From positions 1 through 22,439 of the IMG/VR virus record IMGVR_UViG_3300047550_002398: DNA of 22,439 nucleotides. One strand, written 5' to 3'. The translations under genes were made by a program, and so were the position numbers. Source of the DNA: a virus. Positions 1,783 through 14,104 of the stretch are shown one piece after another; positions within the stretch are counted from its first letter, which is position 1, and every line of letters begins with the position of its first letter. Under the pieces are notes generated by a model. It had not been told where the DNA came from. It was given only the letters and a program-made list of their open reading frames with translations, and did not search any database.

Positions 1783-2815
1783 CGGTATAACTCTTTTAGA
1801 CGATTCAGATAGTAGGACATTAAAGCCAACTCAGGCTGCTCTTTCGTGGTTCACCCCCTCTGTCGGTGACATGGCAGGATATGGCGTGGGAGCTGTGGGG
1901 CTCATTCAAGGTCTCATGCATGAAAACATATATGTAGGCTTTAATCATCCAAAAACTAAAGTTCATGTCTCATTTGTTCAGCCGGAGTGGTACCTTGGCA
2001 GCAGTAATCAATATAGAATTGGATACACTCCTTGGGAATCTACGGAAATTCCTGAATCTTGGGTGTACTACATGCAAGAACAAGATGAAATCTGGACAAC
2101 ATCTAATTTTTGCGTAGATGTATTTAAGAAATATGAAGTTAATGACACAATTCATATGATACCTCATGGTATCGACCCGGAAATTTGGGCTGTTGTCGAT
2201 AGAACATTAGCAAATGAATTTGTTTTTCTTCACATGGGCAGCCCAAGCGAGCGCAAGGGCGCTCAAAAAGTCGTTGATGCCTTCCTTGATCTCTTTGACG
2301 GCAGAAATGATATCAAGCTTATAATGAAGTCCACTGGGGCGACAGAAGCCAGATGGCGTAGAGAAAATTTTTACGGGGGAAACATTAAAAACCATCCTCA
2401 AGTAACAGTAATAGAAGCAGACCTGCCAGTTAATGATTTAGTAAAAATATATCATTCTGCTCATTGCTTGGTTTATCCAACCAATGGAGAGGGTTTTGGC
2501 TTCATCCCCTTTCAAGGGATCGCAACGGGATTACCAACCATTACCACTAACCTAACGGCAACCGCCGATTTTGCTGAACTTTCTATGCCTCTAAAGGCAT
2601 CTTGGACAGATGGTATTGGCTTGCATCTGGGCCTCTGGGCCGAGCCAGACCTTGATGACCTGCGATTTCAGATGCAATCAGCAGTGGATAACTGGGAAGA
2701 CCATAAGAAGAAAGCCATGCATAGCGCTCGTATTATTCACTCAACGCAAACATGGTCTCATATTGCTGATCAAGTTATATCTATTTTAGGTGATAAATTA
2801 TATGAAAGATGTTAA
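1766..2815 (+). CDS. GT-B glycosyltransferase (GT4-like)
   Basis: A 349-residue protein with the two-Rossmann organisation of GT-B enzymes that move a sugar from a nucleotide-sugar donor. Seen: a GYGVGAVG glycine loop near residue 40, IPHGID near 132 at the domain linker, HMGSPSERKG near 155 that fits the donor-binding start of group 1 transferases, and NGEGFGFIPFQ at 240-250 followed by ATGLPTI. The EX7E signature of GT4 enzymes is altered: E242 is kept but the second Glu is Q250. C-terminal helices are rich in Trp and His. The start overlaps the zinc-ribbon gene by 17 bases, with GGAGAGGAAG upstream. It leads five GT-A genes. Likely role is virion or other glycan decoration; the acceptor is unknown. 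Confidence 0.88.
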   Translation: MTSNASGITLLDDSDSRTLKPTQAALSWFTPSVGDMAGYGVGAVGLIQGLMHENIYVGFNHPKTKVHVSFVQPEWYLGSSNQYRIGYTPWESTEIPESWVYYMQEQDEIWTTSNFCVDVFKKYEVNDTIHMIPHGIDPEIWAVVDRTLANEFVFLHMGSPSERKGAQKVVDAFLDLFDGRNDIKLIMKSTGATEARWRRENFYGGNIKNHPQVTVIEADLPVNDLVKIYHSAHCLVYPTNGEGFGFIPFQGIATGLPTITTNLTATADFAELSMPLKASWTDGIGLHLGLWAEPDLDDLRFQMQSAVDNWEDHKKKAMHSARIIHSTQTWSHIADQVISILGDKLYERC

Positions 2816-2818
2816 TAT
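2810..2818 (+). promoter_or_regulatory. extended -10 TGTTAATAT, leaderless type
   Basis: TG (2810-2811) and TAATAT (2813-2818) overlap the stop codon region of the preceding gene and end six bases before ATG 2825. No ribosome binding site lies before that ATG. No convincing -35 is seen (GTGATA at 17 bases). Confidence 0.45.
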
Positions 2819-2824
2819 ATCTCT

Positions 2825-3397
2825 ATGGATTCATTAATTACATTTATTATCCCTACAATATGTAGACCTTCATTGCCGCTTTCAATTCAGACGTTGCAAC
2901 GTCAAAGCAACACAAATTGGAAAGCTGTTGTATGTGGGGATGGCTGTGATCCTATAGTAGATAGGCCACATGGAGATTATAATATTATCGAAGATAATAG
3001 AGTGATATATATAAAAGCACCACATTTTTCTAATCAATCTAAAACGAGAAATTATATGATTGATATCTGTCAAACGGAATGGATTGGATGCTTGGATGAT
3101 GATGATGCACTCATGCCCGAGTATGTTCAATATGTAGAAGATAATAAAGATAATAATGATATTATTATCTTTAAAATGAATAACTATGGAGATATTATTC
3201 CATTTAATCATAGTTTAATTTTGGGTCAAGTTGGCATTAGCTTTGCTGCTAGAGCAGATGTCATGAAGGCAGTGCCATTCCCCGATCCACCCGCAGAAGA
3301 TTATTACTGGCTGCTTAGGTGCGAACAGCTAGGATATAAAATTCATTACGCTGAATATATCGGATATTGGGTCAGGCCAGACTGGGATAATGTTTGA
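2825..3397 (+). CDS. GT-A family glycosyltransferase (GT2-like)
   Basis: A 190-residue, single-domain GT2-type enzyme. The N-terminus TFIIPTICRPSLPLSIQTLQ is the usual nucleotide-binding opening, followed by a CGDGCDP segment. D91-D94 (GCLDDDDALM) is the metal-binding DXD region. The C-terminal half has SFAARADVMKAVPFPDPP and AEDYYWLLRCEQLGY, which match the acceptor-side ED motif of the family. It is shorter than many GT2 enzymes and has no membrane segment, so it is soluble. It overlaps the next gene by 8 bases. Codons are strongly A/T-ending, like the other transferases in the block. The sugar and acceptor cannot be told from the sequence. Confidence 0.88.
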   Translation: MDSLITFIIPTICRPSLPLSIQTLQRQSNTNWKAVVCGDGCDPIVDRPHGDYNIIEDNRVIYIKAPHFSNQSKTRNYMIDICQTEWIGCLDDDDALMPEYVQYVEDNKDNNDIIIFKMNNYGDIIPFNHSLILGQVGISFAARADVMKAVPFPDPPAEDYYWLLRCEQLGYKIHYAEYIGYWVRPDWDNV

Positions 3398-3974
3398 TTT
3401 AATTACCGTGATTCATAATGAGATAAATTTAGATTTGGCTTTAAATAAATTACAGCCATCTATTGAACAATTTTCCACTATGGATTATAACTTTTATCTT
3501 CACGACAATCGTACTAATAATATCGGCTTTGGTCATGCTTGCAATTATCAATCACGGATTGGATCTAGCCCGATTATTGGGTTTTTAAACCCAGATTCTA
3601 GAGTGACTGGCCCATTTATGGATCTCGTGGTCGAGACGTTAAGCGAGGATATTGTAGTTACTGGTGCTAATTTTAATAAAAATCCAGTAGAGATTCATGG
3701 ATGGGGCCTTAACGACTGGGTTTGTGGTGCAGCGATGTTCGTCACCCGCAGTTGGTTTGAAGAATTAGGTGGCTTTGATGAACGATATATATGGTCACAT
3801 GAAGAAACAGATTTTATTAGAACTACCGAGAGTCGCGGACGATCATGTAAATCTCTATATCCTGAACAGCTTCCTATCTTGCATGAGCCAATAGCTGATA
3901 CCCCAGAAGATATAAGATATAAACAACATTATTTTGCTGAAGCTGAAAGGTTATATTGGCAAAAATGGAGATAG
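3390..3974 (+). CDS. GT-A glycosyltransferase, rhamnosyltransferase-like
   Basis: A 194-residue GT2-type enzyme. The segment NIGFGHACNYQ fits the common 'NxGFaxAxNxG' helix. N67-P68-D69 (GFLNPDSRV) replaces DXD, as is usual in the WbbL-like rhamnosyltransferase group. GAAMFVTRSWFEELGGFDE and the following HEETDF give the acceptor/base region of that group. It begins 8 bases inside the preceding gene and its end overlaps the next one, so translation is probably coupled. The start is early in the fold (MFDLITVIHNE), so the nucleotide-binding strand is intact. No membrane anchor. Donor and acceptor are unproven. Confidence 0.87.
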   Translation: MFDLITVIHNEINLDLALNKLQPSIEQFSTMDYNFYLHDNRTNNIGFGHACNYQSRIGSSPIIGFLNPDSRVTGPFMDLVVETLSEDIVVTGANFNKNPVEIHGWGLNDWVCGAAMFVTRSWFEELGGFDERYIWSHEETDFIRTTESRGRSCKSLYPEQLPILHEPIADTPEDIRYKQHYFAEAERLYWQKWR

Positions 3975-4621
3975 GATTATTAATTATTACAGATGGTAGA
4001 AAAGAACTTCTTGATGCTACAGTAAATTCCGCAAGACAGAATTTAATTTGCAATTTTAAAACACAGATCATTGTAAATGATTCACAAGATCAAGAATACC
4101 AAATTTATCTATCTTCTCTATATCCTGACTTTACTATTATTAATAACATACCTAAAGCTGGTTTTTCTGGTTCGATCAACGCTGGCTGGAAAGCCCTATC
4201 TAAAGAAGTAGACTATATCTTTCATCTAGAAGAAGATTTTTTATTTGAGCAGGAAGTAGAAATCTCTAATTTAGTTGAGCTGCTACAGCGCTCAGGAGCT
4301 TATCAGATGATGTTCAAAAGAGATGCTGTATTATCTAATCCTATTGAAGCCGAATATGGTGGATATATAGAGGCTAATCCTCATCTATATGAGCAGCATG
4401 ATGGTTATATATTACATAATAATTTCTTTTCTACTAATCCATGCATTTATTCTACAACTATTTGTAAATTTGGTTGGCCTGAAGGTCAAGGAGAAATTGA
4501 ATTTTTTAATCAAATTAAAAATGTAGATAAAGAAGCAAAATGTGGCATTGTAGGTAATAAATTTGATAAACCCCTCGTTCGTCATATAGGTTATTTCAGA
4601 AATGATGGATGGAAAATTTAA
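3965..4621 (+). CDS. GT-A family glycosyltransferase
   Basis: A 218-residue protein from ATG 3965; a TTG at 3956 would add three residues but has no advantage. The fold opens with IGLLIITDGRKELLDATVNS, then IIVNDSQ, then GFSGSINAGWKAL (the glycine/asparagine helix of GT-A enzymes), and HLEEDFLF with E89-E90-D91 as the metal-binding position. The C-terminus carries WPEGQGEIEFF and a VRHIGYFRNDGW tail. A weak TATATT lies seven bases before the ATG, but without the extended TG, so promoter evidence is poor. The stop overlaps the next start as TAATG, suggesting reinitiation. Acceptor unknown; the EED rather than DXD may mean altered metal or donor use. Confidence 0.8.
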   Translation: MEIGLLIITDGRKELLDATVNSARQNLICNFKTQIIVNDSQDQEYQIYLSSLYPDFTIINNIPKAGFSGSINAGWKALSKEVDYIFHLEEDFLFEQEVEISNLVELLQRSGAYQMMFKRDAVLSNPIEAEYGGYIEANPHLYEQHDGYILHNNFFSTNPCIYSTTICKFGWPEGQGEIEFFNQIKNVDKEAKCGIVGNKFDKPLVRHIGYFRNDGWKI

Positions 4622-5361
4622 TGTCTGTATGGGGTATATCTATGATGAAAGACGAAGCGGACTTTGTAGAATGTATAATTCCTTGGATGGCATCTCAGCT
4701 AGATCATTTATTGATTGCTGATAATCTCTCAACAGATGGAACCCTAGAAAAGTTATATGAATTATCTAAACAATATAACAATATCAATATAGTTATTGAT
4801 TCAGAAGTAGCATATTATCAATCAAAGAAAATGAATGCTTTGGTTCAACAAGCTTATGAGATAGATTCTAAAATATCTTGGGTCTTGCCATTCGATGCAG
4901 ATGAAATGTGGTTTTCCCCAACTGGAAATATTGCTGATACGCTGAACTCATGTGATATGAATGTGATCTCTTGCAATATGTGGCATATGGTTTCCTTCGA
5001 TGAGAAGACATCGATTAACCCATTAGAAACTATTACAATGAGGAGGGCCACTCCCGAGCCGTTTCCAAGCGTAGCATTCAGGTACCATCCAGATGCCCAT
5101 TTGCATATGGGTAATCATGGTATAGATTATCCTGATATAAATATTGGATATGATATCTTAACAATTAAACACTATCAATATCGAAGTTTTGAACATTTTA
5201 AAACTAAGGTTATAAATGGTAAAAAAGCCTATGATGCAACTGATTTTCCAAATTCTACTGGAGCACATTGGCGTGAGTATGGTAGTATGAGCGACAACGA
5301 ACTTCGTTATGTCTGGAATAATTTCATGGATGAAAAAGATCTAGTCTACGACCCGTGGTAA
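4621..5361 (+). CDS. glycosyltransferase of the Glyco_tranf_2_4 type
   Basis: A 246-residue protein from ATG 4621 (TAATG overlap with the preceding stop); an in-frame ATG at 4609 would add four residues. It has the marks of the PF13704-like group: SMMKDEADFVECIIPWM at the N-terminus, LLIADNLSTDGTLEKL near residue 30, and LPFDADEMWF with D92-A93-D94 as the DXD site. Later segments HLHMGNHGID and IKHYQYRSFEHFKTK are typical of the C-terminal acceptor side in this group. Unlike its neighbours it has a clear DXD. No transmembrane segment. Target not determinable. Confidence 0.88.
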   Translation: MSVWGISMMKDEADFVECIIPWMASQLDHLLIADNLSTDGTLEKLYELSKQYNNINIVIDSEVAYYQSKKMNALVQQAYEIDSKISWVLPFDADEMWFSPTGNIADTLNSCDMNVISCNMWHMVSFDEKTSINPLETITMRRATPEPFPSVAFRYHPDAHLHMGNHGIDYPDINIGYDILTIKHYQYRSFEHFKTKVINGKKAYDATDFPNSTGAHWREYGSMSDNELRYVWNNFMDEKDLVYDPW

Positions 5362-5364
5362 AAT
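5356..5364 (+). promoter_or_regulatory. extended -10 TGGTAAAAT, leaderless type
   Basis: TG (5356-5357) and TAAAAT (5359-5364) overlap the last codons of the preceding gene and end six bases before ATG 5371. No ribosome binding site is present. This gives the poly-G glycosyltransferase its own transcript. Confidence 0.45.
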
Positions 5365-5370
5365 ATTATA

Positions 5371-6099
5371 ATGAATATCGGCATTGTTGTTCCTGTTTTA
5401 AATCAATTTCAAAAAGCTATAGATGCTATATCTAGTATTTATACTGAGTTTATTTATGAAATAAAAATTATCCCACAGTATAGATTAGAACAGCCCCTAT
5501 CAGCAGCTTGGAATCAAGGTCTCGAATGGTCTCTTAATAGAGATCATGATTTTACTTTAATTATTAATGATGACATTTTATTTGCTCCTCAGACAATAGA
5601 TAATATGATTAAATCATTAATTGAAAAAGAACAAAGTAATAATTGTCTTATGATTACAGGTAATAATATTAATGGATTATTTGATAATCCATTGCATATA
5701 TTAGAATATAAAACCGACGTAGAGGCATATCAGGAACATCCAGATTTTGCTTGTTTCATGATTAGGCCCTCAATTCAAAATATTATTGGTTCCTTTGATG
5801 AAAATTTTATTCCTGCATATTTTGAAGATAATGACTATCATTATCGTATTAATATAGCTGGATATAAAGCATACAATGCAGTATCTGCTCCGTACTATCA
5901 TTATGGCTCACAGACACAAAATGCTAGTGATATATTACCTATAGTTCCACCTTTTGCATTTGAACTTAATAGAAGTTATTACTGTGATAAGTGGGGGGGG
6001 GTACCCGGAGAAGAGTTATGGGTCCATCCTTATAATAATCATTCTCTTAATTATGCTCAATGGGAGAAAATTCGCACTCATGATTCCTTGTTTTCTTAG
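5371..6099 (+). CDS. GT-A glycosyltransferase with a G9 tract
   Basis: A 242-residue GT2-like enzyme. Seen: IGIVVPVLNQ at the start, QPLSAAWNQGLEWS near residue 41, IINDDILF with N66-D67-D68 as the metal site, and GSFDENFIPAYFEDNDYHYR as the acceptor/base region. Near the C-terminus is YCDKWGGVPGEE, a KWGG-PGEE motif that I recall in related phage enzymes. The codons for W208-G209-G210 are TGG GGG GGG G, giving nine consecutive G at 5993-6001, exceptional in this A+T-rich gene. One extra G would end the protein at the TAA at 6033-6035; one fewer would keep an open frame to 6116-6118 with a different tail. The start lies six bases after an extended -10. Last gene of the block; a promoter follows. 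Confidence 0.88.
   Translation: MNIGIVVPVLNQFQKAIDAISSIYTEFIYEIKIIPQYRLEQPLSAAWNQGLEWSLNRDHDFTLIINDDILFAPQTIDNMIKSLIEKEQSNNCLMITGNNINGLFDNPLHILEYKTDVEAYQEHPDFACFMIRPSIQNIIGSFDENFIPAYFEDNDYHYRINIAGYKAYNAVSAPYYHYGSQTQNASDILPIVPPFAFELNRSYYCDKWGGVPGEELWVHPYNNHSLNYAQWEKIRTHDSLFS
5993..6001 (+). repeat. homopolymer of nine G inside a glycosyltransferase gene
   Basis: Nine consecutive G in a very A+T-rich gene, falling in codons 208-211. Such tracts are classical sites of slipped-strand mispairing and phase variation. The two nearest slippage products differ in length and C-terminal sequence from the product shown here. It could also be a sequencing-length error. Confidence 0.9.
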
Positions 6100-6144
6100 A
6101 ATCCTTCTTGCTAAATAATTTTATATAATTCCTAATGTGTTCTG

Positions 6145-6173
6145 TTGAATTGTGAAAATGCTCATGGTATAGT
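6145..6173 (+). promoter_or_regulatory. promoter for the ribonucleotide reductase
   Basis: TTGAAT (6145-6150), a 17-base spacer, then TATAGT (6168-6173) with TG at 6165-6166. Transcription from about 6180 gives a leader of about 50 bases with AAGGAGA before ATG 6229. The leader is too short for a cobalamin riboswitch; only a weak GGGT/ACCC hairpin is visible in it. Confidence 0.75.
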
Positions 6174-6228
6174 AGTTATCACATTTCGCTCTGGGTATTC
6201 ACCCGCAACAATGTAGAAGGAGAATTTA

Positions 6229-8256
6229 ATGACGGATACAAACTTTACCTTAGAGATCCCTGCGCTTTTTTCGAAGTCGGGCTATCAGGGATATAAAATC
6301 TTTTTAGATAGATACACCAAGAAGGCACCTAAGGGAGAGTTAATCGTCGGTGATCTCGTTCTGGTTGTGACAAAGAAAGATCCCAAGTTCCCACAGAAGG
6401 ATTTGGGCTGGGTTACTGAAGTTGCTAAAAAGGGCGCATCGGTGCAACTTTATAATGGTGAAGAAATTTTTCAAGATTTTGATTTAATTTCTAAGCCTCT
6501 TGAGACGCAGCCTGAGCAGGTTCGTCGTCGCGTAGCCGCGGCGCTTGCCTCATGCGAGGATGAGAGCATCCGACAGTCTGTGGAAGATGACTTCTATCGT
6601 ATTCTTCTTGATTACTTTATCCCCGGTGGGCGCATTCTTGCTGGTGCTGGCCTTGATGTTCTTACACTTCAAAACTGCTTTGTCCTTCCCGGCGCCGAAG
6701 ACTCCAGAACTGGAGTATTTGATAGGGTTAAGGAAATGGCTGAAACACACAGTCGCGGTGGTGGAGTTGGAGTTAACCTTTCATCGCTTCGTCCTCGCTA
6801 TGCTCATGTAAAGGGTGTCAACGGCATCTCATCAGGTGCAGTTTCTTGGGGGCAAGTATTTAATCTTTCTACTGGGCTTATTGAGCAGGGTGGATCTCGT
6901 CGTGGTGCCACCATGCTTATGATTGATGACTGGCACCCTGATGTATTTGAGTTTATTCAGGCCAAGCGTACTCCGGGGCACTTTGAGAATGCCAATATGA
7001 GCGTCTGCATCTCTGATGCATTTATGGAAGCCGTAGAGGCTGACGGAGACTGGGACCTTGTATTCCCAGATACTTCAGATGCCAAGTACGATGAAATGTG
7101 GAACGGCAACCTCCAGCAGTGGCAGGAAAATGGTGGAGCGGTTAAGGTTTATGACACCGTAAAAGCTCGGGATATTTGGAGCCTGCTTATTGAATCTGCT
7201 TGGGCATCTGCCGAGCCCGGCTTACACTTCCTTGAGAGAAGCAACAAGATGTCGAATTCTTGGTACTTTGCTCCGCTCGTTGCAACTAACCCGTGCGGTG
7301 AGCAGCCGCTGGAGGCATATGGTGTATGTACCCTTGGAGCCCTTGATCTTTCTAAGTTTGTTTCACCTTGGCCGCATGGTGGAGTGAATTGGGCCTTACT
7401 CGGGTCAACGATTGAGGTCGCCGTCAGATTCCTTGACAATGTTATCGATATCAATAATTACCACCTCCCAGAGATTGAGGAAAATCACCGCTCCAATCGT
7501 CGCATCGGTCTGGGTACGATGGGGCTGGGCGAACTTCTGGTGCGACTCGGTATTAAGTACGGTTCAGATGAGTCAGTTGAATTTGTAAATACTCTATATC
7601 AGTACATTGCCGAAACAGCATATCAAACATCAATCAATCTTGCTATCGAAAAGGGCGCTTTCTCTAAGTATGATGGGCGATACCTCCGCTCAGGATTCAT
7701 GGAGAATATGCCAGAATCGATTCGTTTGCGAGTTAAGGAACACGGTATTCGAAATGTTTGTCTTTTAACGCAAGCTCCAACTGGTACAACTGGTACAATG
7801 ATGGGTACTTCTACTGGTATTGAGCCATATTTCTCATGGCAGTACACAAGAACCTCACGCCTTGGTGTCCATGTTGAGGTTGTTCCTGTTATCAAGGAAC
7901 TTGGATTAAAGGTTGGAGACCTTCCTGATTACTGCGTAACGGCTCAGGATCTCGCTCCAGAAGAGCACGTAAAGGTTCAGGCCGCAATTCAGCGGTGGAC
8001 AGATTCAGCTATTTCCAAGACTACAAATGCTCCATCACACTACAGCATTGAGCAAACAGACCATCTCTACCGCATGGCCTATCAAATGGGCTGTAAGGGT
8101 ATTACCATCTATCGTGACCAATCTCGCCACGAGCAGGTGCTCTCTGCCATTACAGAGGAATCTGAGCCGGTAGAGGACGGGGTAGATGTTATTCACCAAG
8201 GGGCCTGTGAAATCGCCTACCTCCCAGACGGTACTGTTTACTCTAAATGTGATTAG
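6229..8256 (+). CDS. nrdJ: class II (adenosylcobalamin-dependent) ribonucleotide reductase
   Basis: A 675-residue enzyme that reduces ribonucleotides to deoxynucleotides for phage DNA synthesis, using B12 to make the thiyl radical. Seen: the finger-loop NPCGE with N354, C356 (radical Cys) and E358; the redox pair C150 (LQNCFVLP) and C367 (YGVC), spaced 11 residues after C356 as in bacterial NrdJ; SRGGGVGVNLSSLRP; QAPTGTTGTMMG for phosphate binding; and GCKGITIYRDQSR near the end. There is no ATP-cone. Residues about 30-85 (LIVGDLVLVV to NGEEI) look like an inserted small beta-barrel between the N-terminal helix and the PLETQPEQ helix. The usual C-terminal CxxC arm is missing; only C660 and C674 (YSKCD) remain. 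AAGGAGA ribosome binding site and a clear promoter precede it. Confidence 0.95.
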   Translation: MTDTNFTLEIPALFSKSGYQGYKIFLDRYTKKAPKGELIVGDLVLVVTKKDPKFPQKDLGWVTEVAKKGASVQLYNGEEIFQDFDLISKPLETQPEQVRRRVAAALASCEDESIRQSVEDDFYRILLDYFIPGGRILAGAGLDVLTLQNCFVLPGAEDSRTGVFDRVKEMAETHSRGGGVGVNLSSLRPRYAHVKGVNGISSGAVSWGQVFNLSTGLIEQGGSRRGATMLMIDDWHPDVFEFIQAKRTPGHFENANMSVCISDAFMEAVEADGDWDLVFPDTSDAKYDEMWNGNLQQWQENGGAVKVYDTVKARDIWSLLIESAWASAEPGLHFLERSNKMSNSWYFAPLVATNPCGEQPLEAYGVCTLGALDLSKFVSPWPHGGVNWALLGSTIEVAVRFLDNVIDINNYHLPEIEENHRSNRRIGLGTMGLGELLVRLGIKYGSDESVEFVNTLYQYIAETAYQTSINLAIEKGAFSKYDGRYLRSGFMENMPESIRLRVKEHGIRNVCLLTQAPTGTTGTMMGTSTGIEPYFSWQYTRTSRLGVHVEVVPVIKELGLKVGDLPDYCVTAQDLAPEEHVKVQAAIQRWTDSAISKTTNAPSHYSIEQTDHLYRMAYQMGCKGITIYRDQSRHEQVLSAITEESEPVEDGVDVIHQGACEIAYLPDGTVYSKCD

Positions 8257-8671: not shown

Positions 8672-8995
8672 ATGGCAATAAATCAACCTAAACGCACTAT
8701 AGCTGTCCCCGAATCGTCATATGGAGTATGTCTTTGGCGTATGCCAAATGGAGAATACTTTGGCGCCGAGGGTAGATATTTATCAATGGAGGGAGTACTT
8801 GGTGATGCTCGCATTGAAGAAAAAATGCGACAGGCTGCTTACTACTGGATTGGTGATAGCGTAGGTCAGCCCGCTTGGGTTTCCGGCGCCCGCAAGGTTT
8901 CTGACGATGAGTACGATGATCAGAGCGCAAGGTTGCGTGACGGCCGCATCCCCGATGAGGTCGATGAGTACCGTCAGGCCATTCGGAGGAAATAA
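8672..8995 (+). CDS. conserved phage protein upstream of the portal gene
   Basis: A 107-residue soluble protein. The N-terminal half has a VPESSYGVCLWRMPNG motif followed by GRYLSMEG and a helix rich in charged residues (DARIEEKMRQAAYYWIG). The C-terminus is acidic and helical, ending in RRK. I recall related proteins next to portal genes in actinophages but cannot name a role. The position directly before the portal, with a TAATG stop-start overlap, suggests a structural or packaging role. No terminase lies between it and nrdJ in this window. A promoter just upstream makes it the first gene of the head operon. Confidence 0.75.
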   Translation: MAINQPKRTIAVPESSYGVCLWRMPNGEYFGAEGRYLSMEGVLGDARIEEKMRQAAYYWIGDSVGQPAWVSGARKVSDDEYDDQSARLRDGRIPDEVDEYRQAIRRK

Positions 8996-10608
8996 TGAAT
9001 CACTCAGCTTCGCTCATTGACGAATCTCAAGATACAGTTGTGTACTTACCTGAAATCGATATAGAGTCGGTTCAGCCATTATTTGAAAAAGTCTCTACCG
9101 ATCCATTTAAGAAGGTTGGCTATGATTCGCTTTCAAGAAAAGGTAAGCGTTTAGCCAAACGTCTCGTAGGCGTCGATGGGGCTAAAACTAAATATGAAGA
9201 TCCATTGATGATTGATGGATACGGACTATGGAATGTAGCAGTTCCGCCATATGATTTAGATACGTTATCCACTCTATATGATGAGTGCGGTTTTCTTCAT
9301 GCTACCATAGACGCAAGAGCTATGAACACAGTTGGGCTCGGTTACGACTGGAAACCCACAAGCAAAGCTCAAAAACGCGTATCAAAAGCCGCTACAAATA
9401 CAGAAAAATCTGAACGAATTCGTCAGATGCATCAGACCGAAATGGACCGGCTAGAAGCTTTATTTGAAAGTTTTAATGAAGAAGAAACTTTTACTGAGAC
9501 TATGATTAAGGTTTGGACCGATGTGCTTGTTACCGGCAATGGATACTTAGAAATAGGTCGAACTTTAGTTGGAAAAATTGGGTATATTGGACATATACCT
9601 AGTAAATTAATGCGTGTACGTAAAGATAGAGATGGCTACGTGCAGTTAGCCAACCGTAATGCGGTCTTCTTTAGAAATTTTCAGGATTTTGAAACATCAG
9701 ATCCGATCAATGACGACCCATCGCCTAATGAAGTTTTACACTTTAAGCTTTATAGCCCTAATCATACATATTATGGCGTACCACCTTCGGTATCTGTAAT
9801 TTCAGCCATCATTGGTGATAAGTTTGCTAAAGAATATAATATTGACTACTTTGAGAATAAAGCAATTCCGCGATATGCTATTGTCCTCAAGGGGGTAAAA
9901 CTTAGTGAAGCTTCCAAGCGTGAACTTATTACATACTTCAAGAAAGAAGTTAAAGGACGAAACCACGGAACACTTGTGGTGCCTATCCCTGCTACTATTG
10001 GAGCAAATAATGACGCGGACATCAGATTTGAAAAACTTGAAACGGGAGTGCAAGAAGGTTCTTTCGATCAGTACCGTAAGTCGAACCGTGACGAGATTGT
10101 CTCGGCCTATCGTGTCCCACCTACCAAGGTAGGTATTTTCGATAATGCGAATATGGCCGTCGCCCGGGATGCTGATAAAACATTCAAGACGCAAGTGGTT
10201 AGTCCAGATCAAGTAATTGCCGAAAAGAAGATTAATCGAATTGTCGCTGAATTTAGCGATTTGTTCCTATTCTTCTTTAACCAACTTGATATCATTGATG
10301 AAGATCTTCGTTCACGCATTAATGATAGATATCTTCGTACTGAAGTTATTACGCCAAATGAAGTTCGCACTCAGATTGGCCTTCCCGCAATTCCCGGCGG
10401 CGATGAGGTTCTTCCGTATCCTACAAGTGTAAAGATGCAGCAGAATAATGCCAAGAGTCAAGCTGCTATGGGCAATGATAATGCTTCGGTAGGAACTCCG
10501 CCGAAGTCTGGACAGGATAACGGCAATAATGTAACACCACAAAATGATGGAACTGGACAGGTTCGTGGTGAAGGACAAGATACCCAAGGGGTAAGAGAAA
10601 GAGGTTAA
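8995..10608 (+). CDS. phage portal protein
   Basis: A 537-residue portal subunit, which forms the dodecameric ring at the capsid vertex for DNA packaging and tail attachment. Seen: TLYDECGFLHATIDARAMNT and VGLGYDW near the N-terminus, NGYLEIGR near residue 182, LHFKLYSPNHTYYGVPPSV near 250 (the characteristic 'YG..p' segment of HK97/PBSX-type portals), YFENKAIPRYAIVLKG near 285, and DEIVSAYRVPPTKVG then NMAVARDADKTF near 365-395. The last 60 residues are rich in Gln, Asn and Gly and look disordered. GGAGG lies a few bases before the ATG, which overlaps the preceding stop as TAATG. High confidence from these motifs and gene order. Confidence 0.93.
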   Translation: MNHSASLIDESQDTVVYLPEIDIESVQPLFEKVSTDPFKKVGYDSLSRKGKRLAKRLVGVDGAKTKYEDPLMIDGYGLWNVAVPPYDLDTLSTLYDECGFLHATIDARAMNTVGLGYDWKPTSKAQKRVSKAATNTEKSERIRQMHQTEMDRLEALFESFNEEETFTETMIKVWTDVLVTGNGYLEIGRTLVGKIGYIGHIPSKLMRVRKDRDGYVQLANRNAVFFRNFQDFETSDPINDDPSPNEVLHFKLYSPNHTYYGVPPSVSVISAIIGDKFAKEYNIDYFENKAIPRYAIVLKGVKLSEASKRELITYFKKEVKGRNHGTLVVPIPATIGANNDADIRFEKLETGVQEGSFDQYRKSNRDEIVSAYRVPPTKVGIFDNANMAVARDADKTFKTQVVSPDQVIAEKKINRIVAEFSDLFLFFFNQLDIIDEDLRSRINDRYLRTEVITPNEVRTQIGLPAIPGGDEVLPYPTSVKMQQNNAKSQAAMGNDNASVGTPPKSGQDNGNNVTPQNDGTGQVRGEGQDTQGVRERG

Positions 10609-10609
10609 T

Positions 10610-10855
10610 ATGAGTTATGGACAAATTATTGCCGCTGGCGAAGTAAATGCTGGCGATACCGTTACAACGACAAGTAGAACTACGCAATGGCTCATCATGC
10701 AGCATCAGAGCAATTCTGAGATTATTGCTACATTTGATGGGCAATACCAAGTGCATCTTTCAAAGGACATTACGGCCTATGTAAAGATCCCCGGTAACTA
10801 CCAGAGCGTGGCTACATCCGGTCATGGTAAATTTCATTATGTTATCTTTGGTTAA
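10610..10855 (+). CDS. 81-residue protein between portal and protease
   Basis: A small beta-rich protein: alternating polar and hydrophobic residues (QIIAAGEVNAGDTVTTTS, EIIATFDGQYQVHLS, KFHYVIFG) suggest an Ig-like or jelly-roll domain. It begins two bases after the portal stop with AGAGG upstream and ends just before the strong capsid promoter. No cysteines, signal or membrane segment. Its place in the head operon points to a virion or assembly role. It has the same length as the protein at 423-668, but I see no convincing similarity between them. Family not recognised. Confidence 0.72.
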   Translation: MSYGQIIAAGEVNAGDTVTTTSRTTQWLIMQHQSNSEIIATFDGQYQVHLSKDITAYVKIPGNYQSVATSGHGKFHYVIFG

Positions 10856-10890: not shown

Positions 10891-10912
10891 TGACAAACAT
10901 TATCACTACTAT

Positions 10913-10950
10913 CCCAAAACGATGGTGCCGCCACAGCGCCATTTTGGGAG
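10913..10950 (+). promoter_or_regulatory. leader hairpin that covers the ribosome binding site
   Basis: CCCAAAA (10913-10919) pairs with TTTTGGG (10942-10948). After a three-base bulge, TGGTGC (10923-10928) pairs with GCGCCA (10936-10941) with one G-U pair, loop of seven bases. The GGG of the 3' strand is the first part of the Shine-Dalgarno GGGAG (10946-10950) for ATG 10958, so the hairpin would limit ribosome access. Confidence 0.65.
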
Positions 10951-10957
10951 AATATAT

Positions 10958-13060
10958 ATGTCAGAACAAATTACATTATCAATCCCCATCAGCAAGATAG
11001 ATACATCTCGTCGTATTGTGACGGGATATGCTACTGCTGATAACATTGACCCATCAGGTGACTTAATCGAATATGAGGCATCCGCTGAGGCATTCAGTAA
11101 TTGGATTGGAAATATCCGAGAAATGCATGCTCCAAAGGCTGTCGGTAAAGCGATTAGCTACCGTCCAGTGGTAGTTCCATATCAGGGTCGTGAGTACAGA
11201 GGATTTGAGGTTGATGCCTACATTTCCAAAGGAGCTCAGGACACATGGGAGAAAATTCTGGATGGAACCCTGAAGGGTTTTTCTGTTGGTGGTGTAGTGA
11301 AGAATTCATCTGAAGATTTTGATAAGTCTTCTAATCGCACTATTCGACGCATTAAGAAATATGACTTAAATGAGTTAAGTCTTGTTGATAATATGGGCAA
11401 TCCTGCTGCAACTGTAACTATGATTAAGATGGCACAGGATGGTTCATTAAACTATGAATTAGCAAAGTATAAGGTTTTTTATTGTGACCGTCACGGAGTT
11501 GCTCGCATTAACAACAGTGAATGTGAGCATGGTGACGCTATGCGCGAGATTGGTGCAGTAGACGAAATCGATATCGATGTGATTTCTAAGATGATTCAGA
11601 CCGAGGTGGTGAAAGCCGCCGAGGGGTTCACCCCGCCTCAGGGTGCAAGGGCAGAGGCTCGTAAGGGCCTTGAGTGGCGTCGTGAGTTCAATCGCGGCGG
11701 CACGGCTGTTGGTGTAGCCAGAGCGCGGGATATCTCAAATGGAAAAGAATTATCGATTAGCACGATCAATAGAATGGTCAGTTACTTCGCTAGACATGAA
11801 GTCGATAAAAAGGGTCAAGGATGGTCACCCGGCGAAGACGGTTTCCCATCAGCTGGTAGAATTGCTTGGGCTTTGTGGGGCGGCGATGCCGGTCGAACAT
11901 GGGCCAATTCAATTGCTGACAGGATGAATAAAATTGATTTTATGGATGAAATTGAGGCTCTTTACAAAGAAGAGGCAATGCAGTCCGAAAATAAGGAGGT
12001 AAGTAACATGGAAGACGTATTTACAGACTTCGTTGAGAAGGCTGTCGAATATGGTCACAAGACTCCTCCCAAAGGATTTCCAGAGAGTCGTAGTGACTAC
12101 GCCGATCCAGATAATTACAAGTATCCACTTGATACAGCGGAGCGAGTTATGGCCGCTTTCCGTTACTATAATCAAGCGGGTCAGCGTGAGGCTGGTGGCT
12201 ACACAACGGAACAATGGACTTCTATTGGAAGAAGAATCATTGCTGCTTTAAATCGTTTAAGTGAAACAGATTACACGATGGAAAGTGGTAAAATTGTAAG
12301 GAAAGATATAGGAGGCAACATGGATTTGCAAAAAAATGTTGTAGATGATACAGTTGAGTCTGTGCAGACACTTTCAGAGTCAACCAAAATCGGTTTAATT
12401 GCGAAGTTTGTTTCATGGATTAATGGTGACACAAATGATGTAACTAAGTCGGTTGAGACTGACGAAACTGTCAAAGCTAACAATGTTTCATCTACCGTGC
12501 AACCTGCGCCGAGTGTTAATATCTACATTAACAAGAATGGCGATGTAGAGAAGTCTGCTGAAACTTCAGTCGAAGACTCATCAGAGATCACAAAGGCTAT
12601 GGAGTGCCCTGAGTGCGGTGCTGCCGTACCTGAGGGTGAGGACTCTTGCCCTGAGTGTGGTCATGAAATGGGTGACATGGAAGAGGGAGCAGGCATGAAG
12701 AAGTCTGATGAAACAGATACAACACTCACCGAAGGTGAAGACAATGGAGGTAACGAAGTGGACGTTGAGAAGCTGATGGAGGGGTTTGGTGCCCTTCTGG
12801 ACGAGAGAATCAACAAGATTAAGGAAGAAGTACTTGAGTCAGTGGATGAGAAGCTGTCTGAAGTATCCAAGTCCATTGACGAGAAGGTAGAAACAGTCTC
12901 AGAGCGTGTAGAAACGGTTGAGAATGCTGGCGCTATCAAGAAGTCGGTAGACGAGGAAGTTGTGGGCGATGAGGAAATCATCGAGAAGAAGGCCGAGTCA
13001 TTCTGGGGTGGCATCTTCGTACCCGCGGAAATCGCAGAAGTTTTGGGCTATCAGTCCTAA
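10958..13060 (+). CDS. capsid maturation protease-scaffold fusion
   Basis: A 700-residue multidomain protein. Residues 1-150 are a prohead-protease (XkdF/S78-like) domain, with H57 (REMHAPKAVG) and S109 (GFSVGG) as likely catalytic residues. About 222-325 is a phage head-maturation accessory domain (PPQGAR, RGGTAVGVARA, ARHEVDKKG, IAWALWGGDAG). About 351-450 is another known accessory domain (PPKGFPESRSDYADP, YPLDTAERVMAAFRYYNQ). C550, C553, C564, C567 form a zinc ribbon. About 605-660 is an acidic coiled coil typical of scaffolds, then an aromatic tail (ESFWGGIFVP). ATG 10958 has GGGAG eight bases upstream; an in-frame ATG at 10922 lies inside the leader hairpin. Four in-frame internal starts with ribosome sites fall at domain borders. 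It precedes the capsid gene. Confidence 0.88.
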   Translation: MSEQITLSIPISKIDTSRRIVTGYATADNIDPSGDLIEYEASAEAFSNWIGNIREMHAPKAVGKAISYRPVVVPYQGREYRGFEVDAYISKGAQDTWEKILDGTLKGFSVGGVVKNSSEDFDKSSNRTIRRIKKYDLNELSLVDNMGNPAATVTMIKMAQDGSLNYELAKYKVFYCDRHGVARINNSECEHGDAMREIGAVDEIDIDVISKMIQTEVVKAAEGFTPPQGARAEARKGLEWRREFNRGGTAVGVARARDISNGKELSISTINRMVSYFARHEVDKKGQGWSPGEDGFPSAGRIAWALWGGDAGRTWANSIADRMNKIDFMDEIEALYKEEAMQSENKEVSNMEDVFTDFVEKAVEYGHKTPPKGFPESRSDYADPDNYKYPLDTAERVMAAFRYYNQAGQREAGGYTTEQWTSIGRRIIAALNRLSETDYTMESGKIVRKDIGGNMDLQKNVVDDTVESVQTLSESTKIGLIAKFVSWINGDTNDVTKSVETDETVKANNVSSTVQPAPSVNIYINKNGDVEKSAETSVEDSSEITKAMECPECGAAVPEGEDSCPECGHEMGDMEEGAGMKKSDETDTTLTEGEDNGGNEVDVEKLMEGFGALLDERINKIKEEVLESVDEKLSEVSKSIDEKVETVSERVETVENAGAIKKSVDEEVVGDEEIIEKKAESFWGGIFVPAEIAEVLGYQS
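11993..12010 (+). promoter_or_regulatory. internal ribosome binding site and in-frame ATG (codon 351)
   Basis: A full AAGGAGG (11993-11999), eight bases, then ATG 12008 in the reading frame of the protease-scaffold gene. It lies in the linker right before the second accessory domain. Initiation here would make a 350-residue product with no protease domain. Confidence 0.65.
12310..12322 (+). promoter_or_regulatory. internal ribosome binding site and in-frame ATG (codon 455)
   Basis: AGGAGG (12310-12315), four bases, then in-frame ATG 12320. It falls between the second accessory domain and the zinc-ribbon/scaffold part. A start here would give a 246-residue product. Confidence 0.55.
12685..12697 (+). 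promoter_or_regulatory. weaker internal ribosome site and in-frame ATG (codon 580)
   Basis: GGGAG (12685-12689), five bases, then in-frame ATG 12695, just after the zinc ribbon. Would give a 121-residue product. Weaker than the other sites. Confidence 0.3.
12746..12760 (+). promoter_or_regulatory. internal ribosome binding site and in-frame GTG (codon 601)
   Basis: GGAGG (12746-12750), seven bases, then in-frame GTG 12758. A start here gives exactly the 100-residue coiled-coil scaffold part. Confidence 0.5.
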
Positions 13061-13075
13061 TTAGGAGGAAATAAT

Positions 13076-14104
13076 ATGGGTTCTAGAGAACTGTTAGAAA
13101 AGGTTGTTTCTACTACGCAGATTGGGGCCGGTGGTGGGGGTCTTCTTAACCCTCAGCAATCAAACCGATTCCTTGACTACTTAGTAGAGCAGTCAGTACT
13201 CCTTAACGATGTGCGCGTTGTGCGAATGAATCAGCCAACAGTGGAGATCGATAAGGTAAACGTGGGCACACGTATCATGCGTAAGGCTACTGAGGCTGTC
13301 GATGACGGCACGAATGTGGACCCCACATTCAGCAAGATTTCGATGACGACAGTGAAGCTTCGTCTTGACTGGGAACTCTCAACAGAGGGTCTCGAAGACA
13401 ACATTGAGGGGACAAGCCTTGAGGACCACGTTGCCTCACTTATGGCTCGTCAGACCGCTAATGACCTTGAGGACCTTGCTCTTCACGGCGACACAACGGA
13501 TTCAGACGCCCTTCTCAAGTCGCTCGATGGTTACATCGTGCGCGCCCGTGCGGATGCCACGGTTGTAGACGCGGCTGGTGCGAACCTGACACGATCACTT
13601 TTTGACCGTGCGCTCCGCAACCTGCCCAACAAGTACCTTCAGCGTCGTAGCGCTCTTTCATGGTACACATCATCAAGCCTGATTCAGGACTACATTTGGT
13701 CACTGACCAACGGTAGCGACACGGGTCTTGGTGGCACTGGTGCGGCTTCGCCCGGTGGCACGCTCGGTGACCTGATTGTCAACGCCGGTACAGGCGCTGG
13801 CTCAGGTGGCGGCAGTGCTGTTGTTCAGGGGATCCGTCCTTTCGGCATCACCCTGAAGGAAGTGCCTCTCATGATTGAGACAGAGACTGGTACATACTCA
13901 GGTGCCTCAGGCAACCACGGTATTGTGGAGCTTACGTTCCCCGACAACCGTATCTGGGGTATTCAGCGTGACATCGTGGTTTACCGCGAGTTCAAGCCCA
14001 AGAAGGACACGATCGAGTACACGCAGTTCATTCGCGTTGCTAACCAGATCGAGAATGCTGAGGCTTACGTTCACGTGCGTAACGTTAAGGTTCGCAGCCT
14101 CTAA
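13076..14104 (+). CDS. major capsid protein, HK97 fold
   Basis: A 342-residue capsid subunit. N-arm GGGGLLNPQQSNRFLDYLVE, then a P-domain/E-loop-like region (VVRMNQPTVEIDKV, RIMRKATEAVDD), the spine helix area (LEDHVASLMARQTANDLEDLALHGD), an A-domain with a Gly-rich loop (about residues 220-250), and a C-terminal strand (NRIWGIQRDIVVYREFKPKKDT, VANQIENAEAYVHVRN). There is no long delta domain, which fits the separate upstream scaffold. AGGAGG lies seven bases before ATG. Codons are mostly C/G-ending: bases 13441-13500 are about 55% G+C by hand count, against about 23% in 5581-5640 of the glycosyltransferase block, consistent with selection for high expression. Confidence 0.93.
   Translation: MGSRELLEKVVSTTQIGAGGGGLLNPQQSNRFLDYLVEQSVLLNDVRVVRMNQPTVEIDKVNVGTRIMRKATEAVDDGTNVDPTFSKISMTTVKLRLDWELSTEGLEDNIEGTSLEDHVASLMARQTANDLEDLALHGDTTDSDALLKSLDGYIVRARADATVVDAAGANLTRSLFDRALRNLPNKYLQRRSALSWYTSSSLIQDYIWSLTNGSDTGLGGTGAASPGGTLGDLIVNAGTGAGSGGGSAVVQGIRPFGITLKEVPLMIETETGTYSGASGNHGIVELTFPDNRIWGIQRDIVVYREFKPKKDTIEYTQFIRVANQIENAEAYVHVRNVKVRSL

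Follow-up and report, generated by a model that had tools for sequence, protein, structure and literature searches.

A single open frame of 700 codons lies between the portal and major capsid genes of a 22.4-kb viral contig record, analyzed here as a whole (the window), and inside this frame several start codons follow strong Shine-Dalgarno (SD) sequences, which raises the question of whether the gene yields one protein or several. The original prediction described a protease-scaffold gene of the lambda C/Nu3 type, with up to four nested products from start signals that several fused genes had kept. Its four SD/start pairs (12008, 12320, 12695, and 12758) are present, all in one frame. With high probability, this gene belongs with the nested protease/scaffold genes typified by lambda C/Nu3 and Mu I/Z and has inner starts at 12758 and 12320; judged from sequence, it very probably makes one or two shorter scaffold proteins as well as the full-length product.

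Setting and domain structure of the gene

The gene (Table 1) is preceded by the portal gene (8995 to 10608; PF04860) and a short ORF (10610 to 10855) and followed by the major capsid gene (13076 to 14104). At the left end of the window, three tRNA genes (Ser-TGA, 39 to 126; Pro-TGG, 733 to 808; Thr-TGT, 1430 to 1504) precede genes for two glycosyltransferases and a ribonucleotide reductase.

The assignment of the N-terminal part to a prohead protease is borne out by a match to the head maturation protease phrog_9427 (6e-64), by a Peptidase_S78 (PF04586) score of 22.3 bits, just above the cutoff of 21, and by Foldseek, in which the best match of the domain is the T4 gp21 protease (5jbl; prob 1.00). 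Across 27 sequences, His57 is retained in at least 90% and Ser109 is invariant, and these conserved residues, together with the profile score, place the protein in peptidase family S78. Beyond the protease lie two inserted modules and a zinc-ribbon-like stretch, followed by an acidic C-terminal part with a long predicted helix at residues 603 to 655 (AlphaFold; low confidence, mean pLDDT of 55). Pfam and PHROG profile searches returned no scaffold family match for this part, and its 246 C-terminal residues had no match in known phages within the sensitivity of tblastn; position and the intermediate clade D described below suggest that it is homologous to its counterparts in known phages. Its position, its coiled coil, and precedent in other phages point to a scaffold. 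The match of the major capsid protein to its profile starts at residue 20, and this protein thus has no large delta domain.

Table 1. Features of the protease-scaffold gene and its flank in the window
Feature	Position	Strand	Evidence or remark
RNA hairpin pairing with SD of full-length start	10912..10949	+	z = -4.5; covariation
SD GGGAG of full-length start ATG10958	10946..10950	+	anti-SD energy -7.3
Full-length protease/modules/scaffold gene	10958..13060	+	open frame, 700 aa, 77.2 kDa
Protease domain, ~residues 1-160	10958..11440	+	near-invariant His57, invariant Ser109; Foldseek
Inserted module 1, residues 213-326	11594..11935	+	phrog_2859
SD AAGGAGGT of candidate start ATG12008	11993..12000	+	anti-SD energy -12.5
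Candidate nested product, 350 aa, 38.4 kDa	12008..13060	+	lineage-specific start
Inserted module 2, residues 379-431	12092..12250	+	DUF6582, PF20223 28.9 bits, cutoff 27.3
SD AGGAGG of start ATG12320	12310..12315	+	anti-SD energy -10.2
Putative nested long scaffold, 246 aa, 26.6 kDa, zinc ribbon + coiled coil	12320..13060	+	conserved start ATG
Zinc-ribbon-like stretch, residues 549-570	12602..12667	+	Zn_Ribbon_1 7.5e-5, 22.8 bits, below Pfam cutoff 25
GGGAG + ATG12695	12685..12697	+	anti-SD energy -8.2; rejected start
SD GGAGGT of start GTG12758	12746..12751	+	anti-SD energy -10.7
Putative nested short scaffold, 100 aa, 11.1 kDa, GTG start	12758..13060	+	conserved start

Inner start signals and their conservation

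We measured SD strength as the energy of the duplex with the anti-SD of the 16S tail, on which scale strong starts of genes in the window range from -9.3 to -12.3. Internal in-frame sites at or below -10 occur within the window's genes at 12008, 12320, and 12758 only, and a threshold of -9 yields one internal in-frame site in the 5,796 aa of the window's other genes. Over 18 contigs, ATG or GTG sites at or below -10 number 2.04 per 1,000 aa in protease-scaffold genes versus 0.17 in the remaining ORFs. Of the seven matches behind the latter figure, two are not true internal sites, one being the scaffold start of L037, where the frame is interrupted, and the other the apparent true capsid start within an over-extended ORF of L060. 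(The protease-scaffold frame of L037, positions 5001 to 6608, has a stop codon past the protease part, ahead of an intact scaffold start; this may be an assembly error.) The same scan applied to lambda returns a single inner site (ATG 5342; AGGAGG, -10.8, 131 aa), in keeping with the predicted C/Nu3-type nesting.

Both 12320 and 12758 combine an SD and a start codon in frame ahead of the scaffold part, the latter at residue 601, where the coiled-coil helix begins. The inner sites sit in linkers between domains of the low-confidence AlphaFold model, and the mRNA around them is mostly less structured than the remainder of the gene, with 12008 being average. Acidic linkers rich in Lys, Gly, and Glu easily produce SD-like strings, and the window sequence alone is not decisive, because synonymous recoding that follows the codon usage of the window already gives this protein a mean of 1.3 sites at or below -10 (single-sequence probabilities of 0.10 for 12008, 0.16 for 12320, 0.84 for 12695, and 0.02 for 12758). 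The real support for the putative inner starts is comparative, and here 12758 and 12320 pass and 12695 fails.

For this comparison, eighty viral contigs, further loci, and named phages were sorted into five groups, including clade A (the window and L002 to L012) and clade D (L096 to L104); sequences within a clade are related, and the counts given below are not independent trials. Bacterial genomes searched for relatives gave no confirmed match. In clades A to C, the SD codons are synonymously invariant although mean codon identity is 0.66 to 0.70.

The putative scaffold start at 12758 is retained by almost all lineages, the distant Streptomyces phages among them. Clade A has an identical GGA GGT in all nine sequences that cover the position, followed by GTG in six and ATG in three; clade B has CAG GAG GAA NNN ATG GAT (19/19); and clade C has GAA GGA GGT followed by GTG in 22 of 24 aligned sequences, the other two carrying an AAGGAGG and ATG of their own in the linker, a few codons away. 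GTG accounts for 42 of the 640 Val codons in clade C genes. The Streptomyces phages place AAGGAGGTG-like SDs (-14.8 to -16.0) ahead of ATG or GTG, and Rhodococcus phage Peregrin has an inner SD of -12.4; Rhodococcus phage Dorin has a weak inner site alone (-8.5). Across lineages, the SD motif is encoded in differing registers and peptides (GGN-E, QEE, KED, AEGGNE, and KGGAEQ) and the start codon is always GTG or ATG; since the SD is spelled through differing codons and amino acids, selection acts on the RNA. Recoding P values for this start run from 0.26 to 0.004 by lineage, and no combined P is given for lineages that are related and not independent. A separate lineage (L044, positions 5001 to 6896, and L045) contains several strong inner SD/start pairs, including an ATG at aa 332 (-14.5) and a GTG at aa 462 (-13.6), and possibly more tiers.

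The upstream start at 12320 is retained in the window's clade and in the related clades B and D. All 11 clade A sequences read ATA GGA GGC AAY/GAC ATG GAT, a signal that is invariant even where all upstream sequence differs, and L010 to L012, which are without the DUF6582 module, retain ATAGGAGGCAAYATGGAT exactly. The corresponding ATG of clade B is invariant (21/21) despite varying neighbors and stands behind a weaker AAG GAG (-5.8 to -8.9). Within clade D, two inner starts are found both in genes of ~430 to 480 aa with no inserted modules (L097 and L101 to L104, the upstream start being TTG in L102 to L104) and in L098, which has modules; the 12320 tier is missing in L096. Recoding P for 12320 is ~0.1 to 0.16. 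Neither clade C nor the Streptomyces phages have more than one strong internal start.

Of the up to four nested products predicted, those from 12758 and 12320 are thus well supported, and one more is possible from 12008, a strong but lineage-specific candidate: ATG12008 occurs in the window and the identical L002 alone and not at the equivalent place in L003 to L012, among which L007 has an SD and GTG about ten codons off and L003 to L006 have a Met with a weak to fair SD. ATG12695 is rejected; besides its weak SD and high recoding probability, its Met is not retained in L003 or in L010 to L012.

The outer start, the inserted domains, and the proposed mechanism

The SD of the full-length start is itself paired in an RNA hairpin, which seven clade A sequences form at an equivalent place but with different stems. 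Its upper stem is paired in 54 of 56 cells, with compensatory changes in seven of eight pairs, and its loop, GCCAC, is invariant; reshuffled arms do equally well in 0.2% of cases, a count that leans toward pairing in that the arms were chosen from folds. In a pattern scan, the hairpin precedes the protease gene in clade A contigs only, and matches at L117, L120, and L124 to L127 have no protease downstream and look like chance. The hairpin looks like a translational operator, and we propose that it acts as a brake on protease translation. Clade B (L016 to L046) has a different inverted repeat (e.g., ATTATACAC...GTGTATAAT) ~20 to 50 bases before the protease start, which leaves the SD uncovered.

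The outer SD of clade C and the Streptomyces phages is nearly nil (+2.9 to -2.3) versus -11 to -16 for the inner one, and inner SDs are stronger than the gene's own-start SD (e.g., -13.6 versus ~0). Since the inner SDs are stronger than the outer one, which clade A additionally masks with a hairpin, scaffold should exceed protease; both designs, the hidden and the near-absent outer SD, would predict this outcome.

Initiation at 10958 would give a 77-kDa protease whose inserted domains link it to a scaffold tail, initiation at 12320 a longer scaffold of 27 kDa that includes the zinc-ribbon-like part, and initiation at 12758 an 11-kDa coiled-coil scaffold. As all of these products share one C-terminus, protease and scaffolds could co-assemble inside the prohead, where domains inserted upstream of the inner starts would be carried by the scarce full-length form only.

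What is inserted differs among relatives. A ferritin/Dps-like domain (PF00210) occurs within the protease-scaffold genes of L046 (5001 to 7082), L038 (2215 to 4275), and L096 (2088 to 5345); in the first two, which belong to clade B, it lies between the two inner starts, and in L096 it lies, with a Tudor domain (PF11160), upstream of the scaffold start. Tudor PF11160 is also present in L098, and DUF6321 is present in clade B. Such ferritin-like and Tudor domains suggest proteins carried within the capsid. Module 1 of the window also forms the N-terminal portion of head proteins in other phages; phrog_2859-like sequences stand at the N-terminus of the protease-capsid fusions of Roseobacter phage CRP-406 (L090, positions 2492 to 4876) and Synechococcus phage S-CBS3 (L091), which marks it as a mobile head-gene module.

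Tentatively, and with somewhat less than even confidence, we extend the nested-gene reading to a two-tier gene, in which three ribosome sites would give protease, long scaffold, and short scaffold; the zone of the first inner start would take up foreign domains (DUF6582, phrog_2859, Tudor, DUF6321, and ferritin/Dps-like), the tail would carry them into the prohead as low-copy cargo, and the hairpin would set the protease-to-scaffold ratio.

Competing readings and known systems

A plainer, lambda-type arrangement, in which the scaffold start at 12758 alone is real and the Gly/Glu/Lys-rich linkers generate 12320 and 12008 incidentally, is possible but rather unlikely. It draws on the modest recoding P of 12320, on the weak first-tier SD of clade B, and on the one strong internal start of clade C and the Streptomyces phages, but it leaves without explanation the ATA GGA GGC that all 11 clade A sequences keep despite divergent upstream sequence, the Met that is invariant amid varying neighbors in clade B, and the SD that clade D has at the corresponding border, ahead of ATG or TTG. 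The conservation of a start codon at SD spacing together with the SD (GTG or ATG at 12758) speaks in turn against the idea that ribosomes pause, rather than start, at the SD-like strings and thereby help domains to fold stepwise. Pausing at internal SD-like sequences has been proposed in the literature and the strings do lie in linkers between domains, but pausing requires no start codon, and clade C has a near-invariant GTG where GTG is rare; we regard this idea as very improbable.

We give little credence to the view, which develops the fusion idea of the original prediction, that once-separate genes were fused and retain dead start signals; it is already contradicted for 12320 and 12758. 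The N-terminal place of module 1 in other phages' head proteins and the near-perfect SD of ATG12008 ahead of the DUF6582 module would suit it, and a captured start is possible for 12008 alone. However, module-free relatives (L097 and L101 to L104) hold both conserved starts in one gene, the loss of the DUF6582 module in L010 to L012 leaves the 12320 signal intact, and synonymous sites would not be maintained for dead signals. The pair of starts in relatives devoid of modules indicates that the modules entered a gene that was nested already, and not that genes were fused. A comparison with relatives in which the domains might be separate genes found no stand-alone DUF6582 in the phages collection or in the viral contigs, the latter by a search sensitive to close relatives only; a PF20223 search of five relatives' contigs gave zero matches, which does not establish absence, as its positive control likewise matched nothing. 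Least probable of all is that the smaller scaffolds come from protease cleavage and that the conserved SD is some other RNA signal, e.g., a protein-binding site. The gene does encode a protease, and prohead scaffolds normally undergo cleavage, but the signals match those of real genes in SD sequence, spacing, and start codon across at least five codon contexts.

The favored reading, that of a nested protease/scaffold gene, has several parallels. In herpesviruses, the UL26 protease and the UL26.5 scaffold also share a C-terminus, although UL26.5 is translated from a transcript of its own rather than at an inner ribosome site. Both bind the capsid protein through their C-terminal ends (PMC8539031). 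A scaffold in frame within the protease gene is already known from lambda, Mu I/Z (Z lies inside I in the annotation of the Mu record), and the Mu-like phages PaMx73, with an inner start at Val177 and an SD (PMC4378225), and KS10 (PMC2628397). Lambda, however, has one inner start and no inserted mobile domains were seen in it, and its C protein is annotated as an S49-family peptidase, whereas the present protein is S78/gp21-like; Mu and the Mu-like phages likewise have a single inner start and, by the searches made, belong to a different gene family. Closer are the Stanwilliamsviridae (Streptomyces phages Samisti12, BillNye, TunaTartare, Karimac, and Coruscant), which encode a homologous protease (~40 to 45% identity) between portal and capsid and have the near-perfect inner SD described above, but with one strong inner start only and no inserted modules. 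A literature search that covered few subscription papers found no paper on inner starts, two tiers, domain insertion, or a hairpin in this protease-scaffold family; the two conserved inner starts, the swappable inserted domains, and the hairpin over the outer SD are new details.

The named phage records that we inspected annotate the protease only and no nested scaffold. In this head-assembly family, to which many sequenced Streptomyces phages contribute members, the scaffold lacks annotation; the present analysis indicates its probable place and predicts its N-terminus. With the scaffold restarting downstream, the protease could take on foreign domains without spoiling it, and the hairpin over the protease SD, together with open inner SDs, would offer a testable means of setting the ratio of protease to scaffold.
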